DNA of 52,808 nt. It comes from Acidobacteriota bacterium. Lineage in GTDB: Bacteria > Acidobacteriota > Terriglobia > Acidiferrales > UBA7541. Within the stretch, counting starts at the first letter, position 1. Each line of letters opens with the position of its first letter. A model generated the notes under the pieces. That model did no database searches. It was not told where the DNA came from and saw only the letters and a list, made by a program, of their open reading frames with translations. The position numbers and the translations under genes are program-made. Below, piece after piece: positions 10,997 to 16,653 of this stretch. The stretch lies in NCBI GenBank assembly GCA_003224085.1, contig QHYK01000069.1, forward strand, positions 1-52,808, written 5' to 3'.

Positions 10997-11208
10997 GCAA
11001 ACTCCCGTAGCTGCGATGCATTTTCGCGCCCAGAAATCTACAGCAAATTAGAATGTCGCGGCGCATAGGAAAGATGCTCCTTCTTTTTCACGCTTTGTCT
11101 CCTCTCTATCTCTGTCCGGCGAAAACGCGAACCCGCGGAAAGCCCAACGAGCCCAGTTTTCCCATAAGAGATGTTTATTCGATTCAGTATAACTATTAAT
11201 TGGACTGA

Positions 11209-11236
11209 TTGACTCGCCCTGCTTCATTCTGATACT
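11209..11236 (+). promoter_or_regulatory. Candidate promoter of the ilv operon
   Basis: TTGACT (11209-11214, five of six consensus bases), a 16-base spacer and GATACT (11231-11236, four of six). Transcription would begin near 11243, only a few bases before the leader-peptide ATG at 11249. That would explain the lack of a ribosome binding site there. A second AT-rich box, TATAAC at 11188-11193, lacks a convincing -35 partner. Confidence 0.45.
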
Positions 11237-11248
11237 CTTCATGGCGAT

Positions 11249-11368
11249 ATGACAAGCATCGCCATCACGAATACGCGGAGCGTCCACTGGGCTTTGCCAG
11301 ACGGCCGAGTACCTCTCGTAATTGCAGGAATTGGCTTTGTCCTCGTAGGAGGACGCACCAGCGGATGA
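11249..11368 (+). CDS. Leader peptide of the branched-chain amino acid operon (attenuator control peptide)
   Basis: A 39-codon reading frame, ATG to TGA, ends inside the attenuator. Codons from 11309 to 11347 read V-P-L-V-I-A-G-I-G-F-V-L-V, giving eight Val/Leu/Ile codons among thirteen. These are exactly the amino acids made by the operon downstream. The stop codon TGA (11366-11368) lies within the antiterminator strand 11363-11372. There is no Shine-Dalgarno sequence, but the candidate promoter would put the transcript start within about 6 bases of the ATG. The gene is too short for normal annotation; position, composition and the flanking structures together make it convincing. Confidence 0.8.
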   Translation: MTSIAITNTRSVHWALPDGRVPLVIAGIGFVLVGGRTSG

Positions 11369-11440
11369 TGGCGGCGTAAGCCAAAGCGAAGCACAAGAAT
11401 TCGGCCATCATCCAGACCAGGATGATGGCTTTAGTTTTTT
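11339..11440 (+). promoter_or_regulatory. ilv transcription attenuator (antiterminator/terminator switch)
   Basis: Three segments can pair in two exclusive ways. Segment A (11363-11372, GGATGATGGC) and segment C (11420-11429, the same ten bases) are both perfect complements of segment B (11404-11413, GCCATCATCC). B with C gives a terminator followed by tttagtttttt; A with B gives an antiterminator. A small hairpin, GTCCTC-GTAG-GAGGAC (11339-11354), overlaps the Val/Leu codons, and TTGGCTT (11331-11337) can pair with AAGCCAA (11378-11384). A ribosome stalled at the Val/Leu/Ile codons leaves A free, so A pairs with B and the genes are read; a ribosome reaching the stop at 11366 covers A and the terminator forms. 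Confidence 0.85.
11404..11440 (+). terminator. Attenuator terminator upstream of ilvD
   Basis: A perfect 10-bp stem, GCCATCATCC (11404-11413) with GGATGATGGC (11420-11429), closes the 6-base loop AGACCA and is followed by a T-rich tail with a run of six T (11435-11440). It lies 54 bases before the ilvD start and after the leader peptide, so it would stop transcription before the structural genes. Confidence 0.88.
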
Positions 11441-11494
11441 CTAGGGCTGCTTTTTGAATTTGCCGCCGTCTCGCACCAGCGAAGGAGCCGTTCA

Positions 11495-13219
11495 GTGACC
11501 GATTCCAAACCTCGAAGCCACGCACTCATTGACGGAGCGAGCCGCGCCGGAGCGCGAGCCATGCTGCGCGCCTGCGGTTTGAAGGATGACGATTTCCAGA
11601 AGCCGCTCATCGGAGTCGCCAACACTTGGATCGAAATCGGTCCCTGCAACTACCACCTCCGCGAATTGGCCGGACACGTCAAGGAGGGCATTCGCGCAGC
11701 GGGCGGCACCCCGCTCGAATTCAACACGGTTTCCATTTCCGACGGCATTACCATGGGCACTGAGGGCATGCGCGCCTCGCTGGTCAGCCGCGAAGTCATC
11801 ACCGATTCCATTGAACTCGTGACGCGCGGCAATTTGTTCGACGCACTGGTCGTTCTGGTCGGCTGTGACAAGACAATTCCTGCTGGAATCATGTCGCTGG
11901 CACGGCTAAATATCCCAGGCCTGGTTTTGTATGGCGGCTCCATCGCGCCCGGCAAATTCGAGGGCCACGCGGTCACGATTCAAGACGTTTATGAGGCTAT
12001 CGGCGCGCACGCACGCGGCAGCATGAGCGATGCGCAGCTCAAGTCGCTTGAGACCTCTGCGTGCCCTGGCGCCGGCGCCTGCGGAGGACAATTCACCGCG
12101 AACACCATGGCGCTGGTCTGCGAATTCCTGGGCATAGCTCCGATGGGGCTCTCCAGCGTTCCCGCAACCGATCCCGCAAAGGCCGCTGCGGGCCGGCGGG
12201 CCGGCGAATTGGTGATGGGCCTTCTTCGCAAAAATGTGACGCCGTCAAAAATCATCACAAAACAGGCCATCGAAAATGCCATTGCGGGCGTCGCAGCCAC
12301 CGGTGGTTCCACGAACTCCGTTTTGCATCTGTTGGCCATCGCCAACGAAGCGAAGATTTCTCTTTCCATTGACGATTTCGATCGCATCAGTTCGCGTGTT
12401 CCCATTCTCGCCGATTTGAAACCGGGAGGACGATTCGTGGCCACCGATCTCTATGCAGCCGGCGGGACAGCGCTGGTGGCCAAGCGCATGTTGGAAGGCG
12501 GATTTCTTCGCGGTGAATGCCTCACGGTAACCGGCCGCACCCTCGGGGAAGAGGCCAATGCAGCAAAGGAAACTTCTGGGCAGGAAGTCGTCCGCAAACT
12601 TAACGCGCCTCTCAAACCCACGGGCGGCCTGGTCATCCTGAAAGGAAATCTTGCGCCGGAGGGCTGCGTCATCAAAGTTGCCGGGCACAATCTGCAGAAG
12701 TTCAGCGGCCCCGCGCGAGTATTTGACAGCGAAGAAGCTGCGTTCGCTGCCGTCGAGAAAGGCGCCATCAAAGCGGGCGACGTGGTGGTCATTCGTTACG
12801 AAGGTCCGAAAGGCGGGCCCGGCATGCGCGAAATGCTCGCCGTGACGGCCGCGCTGGTAGGCGAAGGCCTTGGCGATTCCGTGGCGCTCTTGACCGACGG
12901 CCGATTCTCCGGCGCCACGCATGGATGGATGGCCGGACACGTTGCGCCAGAAGCCGTGAATGGCGGCCCGATCGCTGCCGTCGCTGATGGCGACACGATC
13001 ACGTTTGACATCCCCGGTCGCCAGTTGAACGTCGGACTCACCGCGGCTGAAATCCAAAAACGCATGGCTTCCTGGAAGCCGCCAACGCCTCGATTTACCA
13101 ACGGAGTGATGGCCAAATACGCGCTGCTGGTTTCTTCCGCCTCAGCCGGCGCGGTGACGAGTTTGCCCGCCTCGTTTGCGACATTCGCTCGGCCTCTTCA
13201 AAACGTGAGGTCTGTATGA
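11495..13219 (+). CDS. ilvD: Dihydroxy-acid dehydratase
   Basis: A 574-residue cytoplasmic iron-sulfur enzyme that dehydrates 2,3-dihydroxy-isovalerate and its methylvalerate homologue in valine/isoleucine synthesis. Visible signatures are '[20 protein letters not shown]' and '[16 protein letters not shown]', which carry the cluster cysteines, and the C-terminal '[20 protein letters not shown]'. Length is normal. The start is GTG at 11495, seven bases after the ribosome binding site GAAGGAG. It is the first structural gene after the attenuator, and its last codons overlap the ilvB start by four bases (ATGA), indicating translational coupling. Confidence 0.97.
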
Positions 13220-14928
13220 AACTTACCGGTGCGGAAATACTTTGCGAGACACTTACCCGTCTCGGCGTGCGCGAAATCTTTGGCTATCCGGGTGGCGCGA
13301 TTCTTCCGGTGTACGACGCGCTCGGCAAATCGAAATTGCATCATGTCCTGGTGCGCCACGAGCAGGGAGCCACGCACATGGCCGATGGCTACGCGAGAGC
13401 AAGCGGCGGCGTCGGCGTAGCGATGGCAACTTCCGGCCCCGGCGCGACCAACATGGTGACGGGCATTGCCACCGCCATGATGGACTCCTCGCCCATCGTT
13501 TGCATCACCGGCCAGGTCAGCAGCAAAGTCCTCGGCTCCGACGCGTTTCAGGAAACCGACATCACCGGCATCACCATGCCGATTACCAAACACAACGTGG
13601 TGGTTACGCAAACCGGAGATATTGCGCGAACACTTCGCGAAGCGTTCGTCATCGCCAAGAGCGGGCGCCCGGGTCCGGTGTTGGTGGACGTGACCAAGGA
13701 CGCGCAACAGGCTACCGCCGAATTCGAATGGGACGCCTGCATGCCCAAGCTACCGCCAAAACGTATCCGCAACAATCACGACCAAGCCGAATTCGACCGG
13801 GCCGTCGAATTGTTGAACACGGCGAAGCGGCCGGTGGTTCTCGCAGGCCACGGCATCATGGTTTCCGGCGCCATGCGCGCGTTCGAGCAATTCATTCGCG
13901 CGGGCAACTACCCCGTGGCGATGACACTGCTCGGCATCGGCTGCTTCCCCGCCAAGGATCCGCTCAACCTCGGCATGATGGGCATGCACGGCGAGGCGTG
14001 GGTGAACAACGCGATTCAGGAAGCGGATTTGCTGATTGCGGTTGGTATGCGTTTTGACGATCGCGTCACCGGCGACCTGCGCACGTACGCCGAGAACGCG
14101 CGCAAAATTCACATCGAGATCGACCGCGCAGAAATCAACAAGAACGTGAAAGTGGATGCAGCGCTAGTGGGCGACGCACGCGAAGTGCTCGAACATCTCA
14201 CGCCGCACATCGAGACAAGGGACCACAGTGCATGGATTCGTCATATTAATGAACTGAAAGGCGATTCGGCGGTGCGCGACATCCAGAGCCTGCCCGATAC
14301 AGGTCATCTTTACGCCGCGCATGTCATCAATGACCTCTGGAAAGAAACGCGCGGCGAAGCCATCGTGGTCACCGACGTGGGCCAGCACCAAATGTGGGAA
14401 GCACAGTATTACCATCACGACCGGCCGCGCACGCTGATTACTTCCGGCGGCCTCGGCACGATGGGCTTTGCGCTGCCGGCAGGCATCGGCGCGAAGTTTG
14501 CAAAGCCGGATTCGGAGGTTTGGGTGGTGGTCGGCGACGGCGGATTCCAGATGACCATGAGCGAATTGGCAACCATCGTCCAGGAAAAGATCAACGTGAA
14601 GATTGCCATCATCAACAACGGCTATCTCGGCATGGTGCGGCAGTGGCAGGAGTTTTTCTACGATAAACGGTACGTGGCAACGCCTCTGGTCGCGCCGGAT
14701 TTCATCGCACTGGCCAACGCTTTTGGCATCCGCGCCGAGCGGATCACCACGCGCGCGGAAGTAATTCCTGGGATTCGAACCGCGCGAGAAGCGAATGAAA
14801 CGGTACTGCTCGATTTTCGCGTCGAGCAGGAAGACTCCGTGTATCCGATGGTTCCCGCGGGCGCTTCGCTGCACGACATGATTCGCCGTCCGCACAATCC
14901 GCTGGTGGAAACCGCCTCGGACGAGTGA
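13216..14928 (+). CDS. ilvB: Acetolactate synthase large (catalytic) subunit
   Basis: A 570-residue thiamin-diphosphate enzyme that makes acetolactate or acetohydroxybutyrate. The N-terminal domain has '[18 protein letters not shown]' and the catalytic Glu in '[18 protein letters not shown]'; the C-terminal ThDP-binding motif runs from '[18 protein letters not shown]' to '[17 protein letters not shown]'. It overlaps ilvD by ATGA and is followed directly by the regulatory subunit gene. All expected residues appear present. Confidence 0.97.
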
Positions 14929-14945
14929 GGAAGAAAGAGGACAGC

Positions 14946-15497
14946 ATGCAAACACTCGTTGCCTACGTGGAAAACAAACCAGGCGTGCTGAACCGCGTCT
15001 CTTCACTCGCGAGGCGGCTGGCCATCAACATTGACTCGCTCACGGTCGGGCCGACGGAAAACGAAGAGATTGCGCGCATGACCATCGTGGCACATACCGA
15101 TGAACGCGGCGCGCACCGCCTGGAAGCAAGCCTCGAAAAACTCGTGGACGTGCTGCTGGCGGAAAATATTTCCGGCCGCGCTCTGCTCGAACGCGACCTC
15201 GCGTTGATTAAAGTGGCTGCCGACCAGCAGAACCGGCCGCATCTGATGGAATTGATCAAGGTTTTTCGCGCTCGCGTCGTGGATGTGGCTCCCGAATCCC
15301 TGATTATCGAAGTTTCCGGCACCGTGGACAAAATTGACGGCTTGCTCGAAGTGCTTCGTCCCTTTGGTGTTCTGGAGATGGCCCGCACCGGACGCATTTC
15401 CATGACGCGCGGAAGCGATTTGCTGCGTCCGCCATTGCTGGACATCGAGGTTTCAGCGGTTGAATCCGAAGTTTCGAAGGTGAATAAACACCCTTAG
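14946..15497 (+). CDS. ilvN: Acetolactate synthase small (regulatory) subunit
   Basis: A 183-residue protein from the chosen start. The N-terminal ACT domain ('LVAYVENKPGVLNRVSSLAR' to 'MTIVAHTD') binds the feedback inhibitor valine, and the C-terminal ALS small-subunit domain ('FRARVVDVAPESLIIEVSGT') follows. The frame is also open from a GTG at 14925 that overlaps the ilvB stop, but the ATG at 14946 is preceded by AAAGAGGA and matches the usual N-terminus, so it is preferred. The name ilvH would be equally acceptable. Confidence 0.95.
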   Translation: MQTLVAYVENKPGVLNRVSSLARRLAINIDSLTVGPTENEEIARMTIVAHTDERGAHRLEASLEKLVDVLLAENISGRALLERDLALIKVAADQQNRPHLMELIKVFRARVVDVAPESLIIEVSGTVDKIDGLLEVLRPFGVLEMARTGRISMTRGSDLLRPPLLDIEVSAVESEVSKVNKHP

Positions 15498-15615: not shown

Positions 15616-16653
15616 ATGGCTAATCTCTATTACGACGACTCCGCGGATCTCGCGCTCATTCAAGGAAAAAAGGTGGCCATCATTGGCTACGGCTCGCAGG
15701 GACATGCACATTCTCTGAACCTGCGCGATAGCGGAGTTCAAGTCCGAGTGGGTCTCCCCGAAACCAGCGCTTCGCGCGCCAAAGCCCAAAAGGAAGGGCT
15801 GACCGTTAACACGCCGGCAGAGGCTGCGGCTTGGGCCGATGTCATCATGATTCTTGCTCCGGACACGAAGCAACCGAAACTCTATCGCGACGCGATTGAG
15901 CCAAACCTCAAGCCGGGCAAGACGCTCATGTTCGCGCACGGCTTCAACATCCGTTTTGGCGCGATCAAACCGCCGAAAACCGTTGACGTTTCCATGATCG
16001 CGCCCAAAGCGCCCGGCCATCGCGTGCGGGAGGTCTTCACCGAAGGCGGCGGCACGCCCGCGCTGCTGGCGGTGGAACAAGAGGCAAGCGGAAATGCCAA
16101 GGCACTGGCGCTCTCGTACGCGAAGGGACTGGGCTGCACGCGCGCGGGTGTTTTAGAAACGACGTTCACCGAAGAGACCGAGACGGACCTGTTTGGCGAG
16201 CAGGCGGTGCTTTGCGGCGGCGTCAGCGAATTGATCAAAGCAGGCTTCGAGACGCTCGTTGCGGCAGGCTACCAGCCGGAAGTAGCGTATTTCGAGTGCA
16301 TGCACGAGCTGAAGCTGATCGTGGACCTGATCTACCGCGGCGGGCTCAGCTATATGCGCTATTCCGTCAGCGATACCGCTGAGCAGGGCGACTATGCTTC
16401 CGGGCCGCGCATTGTAACCAAACAAACGCGCGAGGAAATGAAGAAGATTCTCGCGGAAATTCGCGACGGCAGCTTCGCGAAAAAGTGGATTGAAGAAAAC
16501 GAAAAGGGCTGCCCCAACTTTTTGGCCACGCGCCAGCATGAGCAGCAGCATCCCATTGAGCAACTCGGCCCCAAGCTGCGCGCGATGATGCCCTTCCTGC
16601 AACCTGTTCTCGCACCAGGCCTGGAGATCAAGGCCGCCGCCACCAAGAAATAA
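15616..16653 (+). CDS. ilvC: Ketol-acid reductoisomerase (class I)
   Basis: A 345-residue NADPH-dependent enzyme that isomerises and reduces acetolactate. The Rossmann motif is '[20 protein letters not shown]'; the knotted C-terminal domain carries the metal ligands in '[20 protein letters not shown]' and the helix '[19 protein letters not shown]'. The length is that of the short class I enzyme. It begins 118 bases after ilvN with ribosome binding site AGAGGA; the gap has no clear terminator, so it likely belongs to the same attenuated operon. Confidence 0.97.

Follow-up and report, generated by a model that had tools for sequence, protein, structure and literature searches.

Classical transcription attenuation is a long-established principle. 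In Corynebacterium the leader of ilvBNC, the ilvB-II motif, is supported by reporter data from rich and minimal medium, and the upstream ORFs of the ilvB-OMG motif, found in several phyla, are described as rich in branched-chain and Thr codons (excerpts of PMC10272879). Leader attenuators for trp, leuS, ilvB and cys genes of Actinobacteria were identified computationally (PMC1262725, in part). For the Acidobacteria, the consulted portions of PMC2965389 contain predicted attenuators, almost none with an associated function, and those of PMC4833913 show leader genes whose frequency peaks shortly upstream of structural genes; Weinberg et al. 2010 (PMC2864571) presented two acidobacterial RNA motifs that are not marked as cis-regulatory in the sections consulted. 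Among the literature matches listed we found no acidobacterial leader attenuator for a named operon; subscription papers were mostly outside the scope of the search, and the cross-bacterial survey of Lopatovskaya et al. 2010 may list some.

The DNA analyzed here, a stretch of 52,808 nucleotides from an acidobacterium (the window), carries four ORFs between 11495 and 16653 which we take to be ilvD, ilvB, ilvN and ilvC:

11495..13219, + strand: ORF with GTG start, ilvD, dihydroxy-acid dehydratase, first gene of the putatively controlled operon
13216..14928, + strand: ORF, ilvB, acetolactate synthase large subunit
14925..15497, + strand: ORF, ilvN, acetolactate synthase small subunit; a homologue at L143 was named by NCBIfam
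15616..16653, + strand: ORF, ilvC, ketol-acid reductoisomerase

Direct reading of the sequence showed that this operon is preceded by a short decoy ORF rich in Val, Leu and Ile codons, followed by three mutually related segments (A, B and C) and a T-rich tail:

11249..11368, + strand: leader peptide ORF MTSIAITNTRSVHWALPDGRVPLVIAGIGFVLVGGRTSG-stop, 39 codons from the ATG at 11249 to the TGA at 11366-11368, with orthologous leaders in the genus
11309..11347, + strand: regulatory codon run V P L V I A G I G F V L V, 8 of 13 being Val/Leu/Ile
11339..11354, + strand: small hairpin GTCCTC-GTAG-GAGGAC obtained by folding, between the codon run and A; similar ones were seen by eye in part of the genus
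11363..11372, + strand: segment A, GGATGATGGC, antiterminator 5' arm, identical to C and containing the leader stop
11366..11368, + strand: leader stop UGA, inside A; a stop codon stands at the matching place in 29/30 genus loci
11403..11413, + strand: segment B in its 11-nt form, GGCCATCATCC, terminator 5' arm and antiterminator 3' arm
11420..11430, + strand: segment C, terminator 3' arm, of which 11420-11429 is identical to A
11431..11440, + strand: T-rich tail TTAGTTTTTT, end of the intrinsic terminator

The original prediction proved correct base for base in its leader frame (11249-11368) and in the eight Val/Leu/Ile codons among thirteen at 11309-11347. Direct reading likewise confirmed its claims that the leader stop lies in A and that A and C are identical and both complementary to B, the 10-nt form of B (GCCATCATCC, 11404-11413) being the exact complement of each. 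The terminator stem has 11 pairs (one of them G-U), a loop of 6 and the tail TTAGTTTTTT, and 15 nt separate the last Val codon, which ends at 11347, from A. The exact A:B versus B:C switch with a T-tail before ilvD, also predicted, was borne out by the sequence and by the folding of sub-segments: RNA 11360-11419, in which C has not yet been made, folds as A:B (-24.5 kcal/mol), RNA 11381-11440, in which A is masked, folds as B:C (-21.5 kcal/mol), and at equilibrium RNA 11360-11440 folds as B:C (-28.5 kcal/mol). The minimum free energy of 11243-11450 had a z-score of -2.95.

The frequency of such an arrangement was estimated by scanning for a perfect 9-pair stem with a loop of 3-8, a T-rich tail and a copy of the 3' arm no more than 80 nt upstream. 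On both strands of the window (52.8 kb) the element was the only place with all of these features; one further 9-pair T-tailed stem, on the other strand, was without an upstream copy. A single-strand scan of each of 20 first-order Markov windows gave two stems, neither with an upstream copy. Since no comparable stem and copy were seen in the rest of the window or in the Markov controls, a chance arrangement is unlikely.

A leader with cognate codons, mutually exclusive helices, a stop codon placed in A and a U-tract terminator before ilvD are the features of an attenuator, and we consider it highly likely that the element is a ribosome-mediated (classical) transcription attenuator of ilvDBNC, whose leader very probably lets the ribosome decide whether transcription stops. 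When branched-chain amino acids are plentiful, the translating ribosome would run through the Val/Leu/Ile codons to the UGA in A and mask A, covering the RNA to about 11380; with A masked, the B:C terminator would form and RNA polymerase would stop at about 11440. A shortage of charged Val-, Leu- or Ile-tRNA would make the ribosome stall on 11309-11347, 5' of A, so that A:B would pair once B is made, C would be left free and transcription would continue into ilvD. With the ribosome footprint taken at its generally known size, the 15 nt between the last regulatory codon and A imply that a stalled ribosome should leave A free. Because equilibrium favours B:C, antitermination would have to be kinetic, with A:B forming first, as in other attenuators. 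The small hairpin at 11339..11354 is a possible pause hairpin.

Conservation was analyzed in 30 IlvD loci of the genus and by scanning 36 genus genomes with model R1, which found the element in 31 of the 36 and in all 24 of good quality. Among the genomes missed, G015 has no IlvD match, G026 has a 38% match only and the match in G005 begins at residue 117; in G002 (L023) and G022 (L013) ilvD is present and the A/B/C core is absent. The leaders were compared over 30 core-bearing loci, namely 28 of the 30 IlvD loci together with L133 and L135. In the related genomes whose comparison the original prediction had proposed, the leader frame, the Val/Ile codons, the stop in A and the A, B and C segments are kept in most cases. 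The genus leaders are often 39 codons long from ATG to stop and share the consensus V-V-R-I-I-P-V-[L/P]-V-R-G near their end; in the 27 that are in frame, the most frequent residue at codons -16, -14, -12, -9 and -7, counted from the stop, is V or I. Six of the 30 loci (L007, L012, L024-L027) yielded no in-frame ATG leader under the search rule, which assembly indels in the metagenomes or genuine decay could explain; in L025 and L027 segment A is degenerate. A codon-position conservation test for peptide-level selection in the genus leaders gave no clear synonymous pattern.

Upstream of the leader, the genus alignment contains a further conserved block next to the predicted promoter:

11193..11210, + strand: CTATTAATTGGACTGATT, element 5' of the -35, very strongly conserved in the genus alignment
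11209..11214, + strand: -35-like TTGACT, predicted
11233..11238, + strand: -10-like TACTCT, predicted; TAnnnT occurs at the matching distance in 22/30 genus loci

The motif TATTAATT[TG]GA is kept in 29/30 genus loci, and in the thirtieth, L029, the contig ends before the element. CTATTAATTGGACTGATT is present also in the two genus loci without the attenuator (L013 and L023) and has its sole copy in its own genome at up to 2 mismatches; it is probably a regulator site. Of the promoter boxes originally proposed, TTGACT (11209) and GATACT (11231-11236) are both present, but TACTCT (11233-11238) is the better conserved -10 reading and would shorten the 5' UTR from about 6 to about 4 nt. A near-leaderless transcription start is plausible from these predicted boxes. 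At the other end of the region, a further inverted repeat, GATGG...CCATCGAAGG, was seen by eye just 5' of the ilvD ribosome-binding site in L010, L011, L014, L017 and L022.

Two other features lie around the start and the stop of the leader:

11241..11248, + strand: P1, ATGGCGAT, 5' arm of a hairpin around the leader start, from folding and from the genus loci
11258..11265, + strand: P1', ATCGCCAT, 3' arm of the same hairpin, from folding and from the genus loci
11365..11379, + strand: frame-2 mini-ORF ATG ATG GCG GCG TAA, overlapping the leader stop, with its own stop at 11377-11379

The longest stem at the position of the 5' hairpin had a mean of 7.33 pairs against 5.40 in shuffled sequences (24 genus loci), the excess at a single locus often not being significant; by our reading, the GGC-bearing arm of P1 underlies the longest stem in 19 of the 24. 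L028 keeps P1:P1' by a both-sided change (TGGGCGAT/ATCGCCCA). The idea that P1' also pairs with A as its protector was dropped, since L028 retains P1:P1' by this compensatory change and loses P1':A.

A frame-2 stop at +11 from the leader stop was found in 27/30 genus loci (TAG in 16, TAA in 10, TGA in 1), and a frame-1 stop within 13 nt in 0/30. Among 57 frame-0 leaders elsewhere, a stop within 11 nt lay in frame 2 for 23 and in frame 1 for 4. The +11 stop is in frame with the AUGAUG that overlaps the leader UGA, and a frame-2 stop terminates the leader of L009 and several Thr and Val leaders; the +11 stop may be the end of a re-initiation mini-ORF or a spare stop for frame-shifting leaders. 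From these observations a more elaborate version of the attenuator can be drawn, which we offer tentatively and regard as somewhat doubtful. The core would be a modular chassis in which A acts as antiterminator arm, as stop and as a stop-start overlap (AUGAUG within G-G-A-UGA-UG); having terminated at the UGA, the ribosome would re-initiate on the overlapping AUG and read the mini-ORF to the second stop, which would keep it longer on A and sharpen termination, and the 5' hairpin would set how often the leader is entered.

Beyond the genus, a recurrent core in which the leader stop lies inside GGATGATG, followed by GGCCATCATCC, GGATGATGGCC and a T-tract, was found in other acidobacterial families before different amino-acid genes. 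Model R1 matched 45/396 phylum genomes at E<=0.001. Model R2, built on the core of 40 sequences and expected to miss diverged cores, matched 74/396 at E<=0.01 under strict filters, some of these matches being false. In smaller samples, at E<=0.001, 5/40 phylum genomes and 5/41 class genomes matched; 3 of the 5 in the class sample belong to the genus of the window, and G094, which is counted in both samples, looks like a plain terminator. Named acidobacterial genomes matched in 9/23 cases, two of which (L271 and L272) share coordinates with L243 and L254, terminators after long ORFs. Non-acidobacterial genomes with a similar IlvD gave 2/50 weak matches (E 0.0036 and 0.0052) against a random expectation of about 0.5, a result near chance. 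The genome of the window itself has one clear copy, that before ilvD. On these scans the distribution of the element inside the phylum is patchy. A strict pattern of the core sequence was found at 24 places in 21/396 genomes, 23 of them coinciding with R2 places and one (L282) being new; because this pattern misses the window itself, the covariance model was kept. The genes downstream of the model matches include ilvD, ilvNB, ilvB, ilvNC, cimA, ilvA, thrA, hom, cysteine synthase and a siroheme-type methyltransferase.

Eight R2 matches (L242-244, L247, L252, L254, L255 and L257) were rejected as plain terminators lying right after long ORFs, and they indicate that the terminator half alone can be matched. 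Such matches lend some weight to the view that the window element, too, is an ordinary intrinsic terminator with a chance ORF upstream and without ribosome control. We judge this very unlikely: the upstream gene in the window is divergent, ilvB, ilvN and ilvC lie on the ilvD strand and the terminator can therefore serve the ilv operon alone, a stop codon lies in A at the leader's place in 29/30 genus loci, and the codon content of the leaders tracks the downstream pathway, as described below.

Pairing was analyzed across the phylum on the 40 cores. The B:C helix had 96.4% paired cells and 18 both-sided changes, a number reached in 0/500 shuffles; within the genus alone there were 2 both-sided cells, a modest result that 27/500 shuffles reach. 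For the 10 core A:B pairs, the phylum cores gave 4 both-sided cells, which is not convincing since 77/500 shuffles reach it, and within the genus these pairs are almost invariant, so that covariation there is thin; L012 carries a clear double change in A:B (GGATAATGGC:GCCATTATCC). Between the bases just 5' of A and those that open the terminator loop, pairing extends over a mean of 1.48 contiguous positions against 0.90 (sd 0.10) when the partners are shuffled; this was tested on 62 distinct of 73 loci, and 0/5000 shuffles, which ignore relatedness, reach the value. GGTTC/GAACC, GCAGC/GCTGC and CGGGT/ACCCC are examples. These extension pairs lengthen A:B and are impossible in B:C, and they therefore argue for the antiterminator; in the genus of the window the extension is lacking, with 0 or 1 pair in 15 rows. 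In L313 and L306 the A, B and C segments have all changed together, with TAA and TAG respectively as the leader stop. The compensatory changes that the original prediction proposed to look for were found for B:C across the phylum and for A:B in the extension pairs, with weak covariation in core A:B.

The same data bear on translational or Rho control, in which the leader would affect mRNA stability, Rho access or ilvD translation and termination at the hairpin would be incidental. Leader ORFs without terminators have been proposed for actinobacterial cys operons, with Rho suggested (PMC1262725, in part). In the acidobacterial family, however, the stem and T-tract are kept throughout, the stem covaries and bases of the terminator loop are used by the A:B extension, and we regard this explanation as unlikely.

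Leader codons were compared with the downstream genes over 88 catalogued loci (best match for each, with duplicates L204 and L221 dropped). Seventeen loci (L237, L242-247, L250-252, L254, L255, L257, L258 and L260-262) were excluded because no amino-acid gene was recognised or the terminator followed a long ORF, and 71 were kept. Genes were assigned mostly by BLAST to reference proteins, with families by Pfam and NCBIfam and the window serving as reference for the ilv genes; two assignments were made by eye, L232 as ilvA, like L222, and L239 as cysteine synthase, like L253. The leader frame was chosen by a composition-blind rule, which required a stop codon within or adjoining A at one of the listed offsets and an ATG 18-75 codons before it; for L143 and L229 the frame-0 reading was used instead. 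Codons were counted over the 20 ending two before the stop (19 for L143); the gene classes and the allowed stop offsets were set after the leaders had been viewed.

Before branched-chain genes (40 loci) the leaders averaged 9.3 Ile/Leu/Val codons of 20, with 1.4 Thr and 0.1 Cys. Of 13 thrA/hom loci, where an aspartokinase or homoserine dehydrogenase gene follows, 12 had a leader, with means of 5.7 Thr and 3.1 Ile/Leu/Val; leaders before cysteine synthase or uroporphyrinogen methyltransferase (siroheme) genes (3 loci) averaged 6.0 Cys of 20. Rank tests gave 1e-7 (Thr), 5e-7 (Ile/Leu/Val) and 9e-6 (Cys), values that are optimistic because relatedness is ignored: family f38 supplies 14 of the 40 branched-chain loci (nine ilvNB and four cimA in g63, one ilvNC in g138), genus g104 all five thrA loci and genus g112 2 of the 3 Cys loci. 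Standalone examples are the leaders ITLLIPVIIVVVVLLIKSG-stop before ilvB (L219), TMTTTTTTIGVDGRCG-stop before aspartokinase (L218) and ACACPCCCPACC before cysteine synthase (L253). Across the 55 loci with a leader frame, the leader codons match the downstream pathway. It is well supported, on sequence comparison, that Acidobacteriota possess one A/B/C core with exchangeable codons (Ile/Val/Leu, Thr, Cys) before matching genes. To call the element worth describing for the Acidobacteria, as the original prediction did, is right and yet an understatement, because it belongs to a multi-amino-acid family in the phylum.

This exchange of codons also bears on the possibility that the element is a metabolite- or tRNA-binding RNA (a riboswitch or T-box) that happens to hold an ORF, ppGpp riboswitches being known to control ilvB genes in some bacteria (PMC10272879, in part). 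Codon identity changes with the operon and the core stays constant, and conservation in the genus alignment is highest in columns that mostly belong to A, B and C. Rfam gave no match in the window at family thresholds, T-box included; in 20 family loci it returned two tRNA genes only, with no leader family or T-box at threshold, and in 18 loci searched at E<=0.5 the sole leader family was Thr_leader on L249, at 32.1 bits against a threshold of 55. An RNA of this kind is extremely improbable here.

The remaining 15 loci of the codon table had a mean of 7.0 Ile/Leu/Val, and two gltB and two MFS loci among them fit no pathway. Val-rich leaders before prephenate dehydratase genes (12 of 20 Ile/Leu/Val codons at L146, 7 at L168) were considered as a contradiction and dropped, since ilvB (L146, L168) or ilvD (L149, L227) lies just downstream; aromatic and branched-chain genes may share one attenuated operon at these four loci. 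A further prephenate dehydratase locus, L223, has 4/20 Ile/Leu/Val and no ilv gene in the stretch examined. LysR-type regulator genes lie within about 10 bases of the core, behind Ile/Leu/Val-rich leaders, at L159, L164, L203 and L313 (three named by Pfam, L313 by eye), the three in the table having 7, 9 and 12 of 20; L313 gives a genome from the same genus as the window a second copy of the core. Attenuation of a LysR gene may connect the control of branched-chain synthesis at the transcriptional and the RNA level.

Several other loci carry the core in less expected settings. L156, L162, L212 and L213 have Leu/Ile-rich leaders and a full core, with ilvC convergent nearby in all four; in L156 and L213 the core is followed by an ORF of about 90 aa, of which the L213 copy has no Pfam match. 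At L154 (by NCBIfam) and L226 (by BLAST) the core precedes a glutamate synthase large-subunit gene and neither leader fits the pathway, that of L226 leaning to Thr/Ile. L238 has a Cys-rich leader (6/20) and the core before a redoxin-family gene (Pfam), not a cysteine biosynthesis gene. Among the excluded loci, one frame of L245 looks Cys-rich and one of L250 Leu-rich.

The Acidobacteriota are abundant, little-studied soil bacteria, and they gain here a readable system of amino-acid control, in which the codons of the leader disclose the regulated amino acid and the gene that follows serves as a check. With its fixed core and exchangeable codons, the family offers a natural experiment on the movement of attenuators between pathways that can be tested with reporters, and a covariance model would annotate operons, and some unexpected targets, outside present Rfam coverage.

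Compared with thrL and ilvL of E. coli (Enterobacteria), the acidobacterial element has the same organization of cognate-codon leader, alternative antiterminator and terminator, and first genes of the matching pathways, and the L166 leader ATTIVITTTTCGVPRG-stop presumably resembles thrL in composition. It differs from those systems in that one A/B/C core is common to the Ile/Val/Leu, Thr and Cys operons and in that the leader stop lies inside A. In the literature searched, such a core with exchangeable codons appears to be undescribed. No acidobacterial operon is named in the consulted part of PMC4833913, whereas function is assigned here from codons and gene context, as it is also in comparison with the attenuators predicted in PMC2965389 (in part). 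The element is like the ilvB-II motif of Corynebacterium in having a branched-chain-rich leader ORF and a terminator before ilv genes; there, however, the leader usually has 15-17 codons and each genome has the motif once, before ilvB (PMC10272879, in part), whereas the window leader has 39 codons and lies before ilvD, and its core is reused before other pathways. As in the Actinobacteria, the leader peptides were found computationally and Cys-rich leaders precede cys genes; the short complementary actinobacterial core gGCC-rGCy-GGCC is conserved within, and described for, trp attenuators, and the actinobacterial cys leaders are without terminators (PMC1262725, in part), whereas the acidobacterial Cys-codon leaders carry the terminator core.
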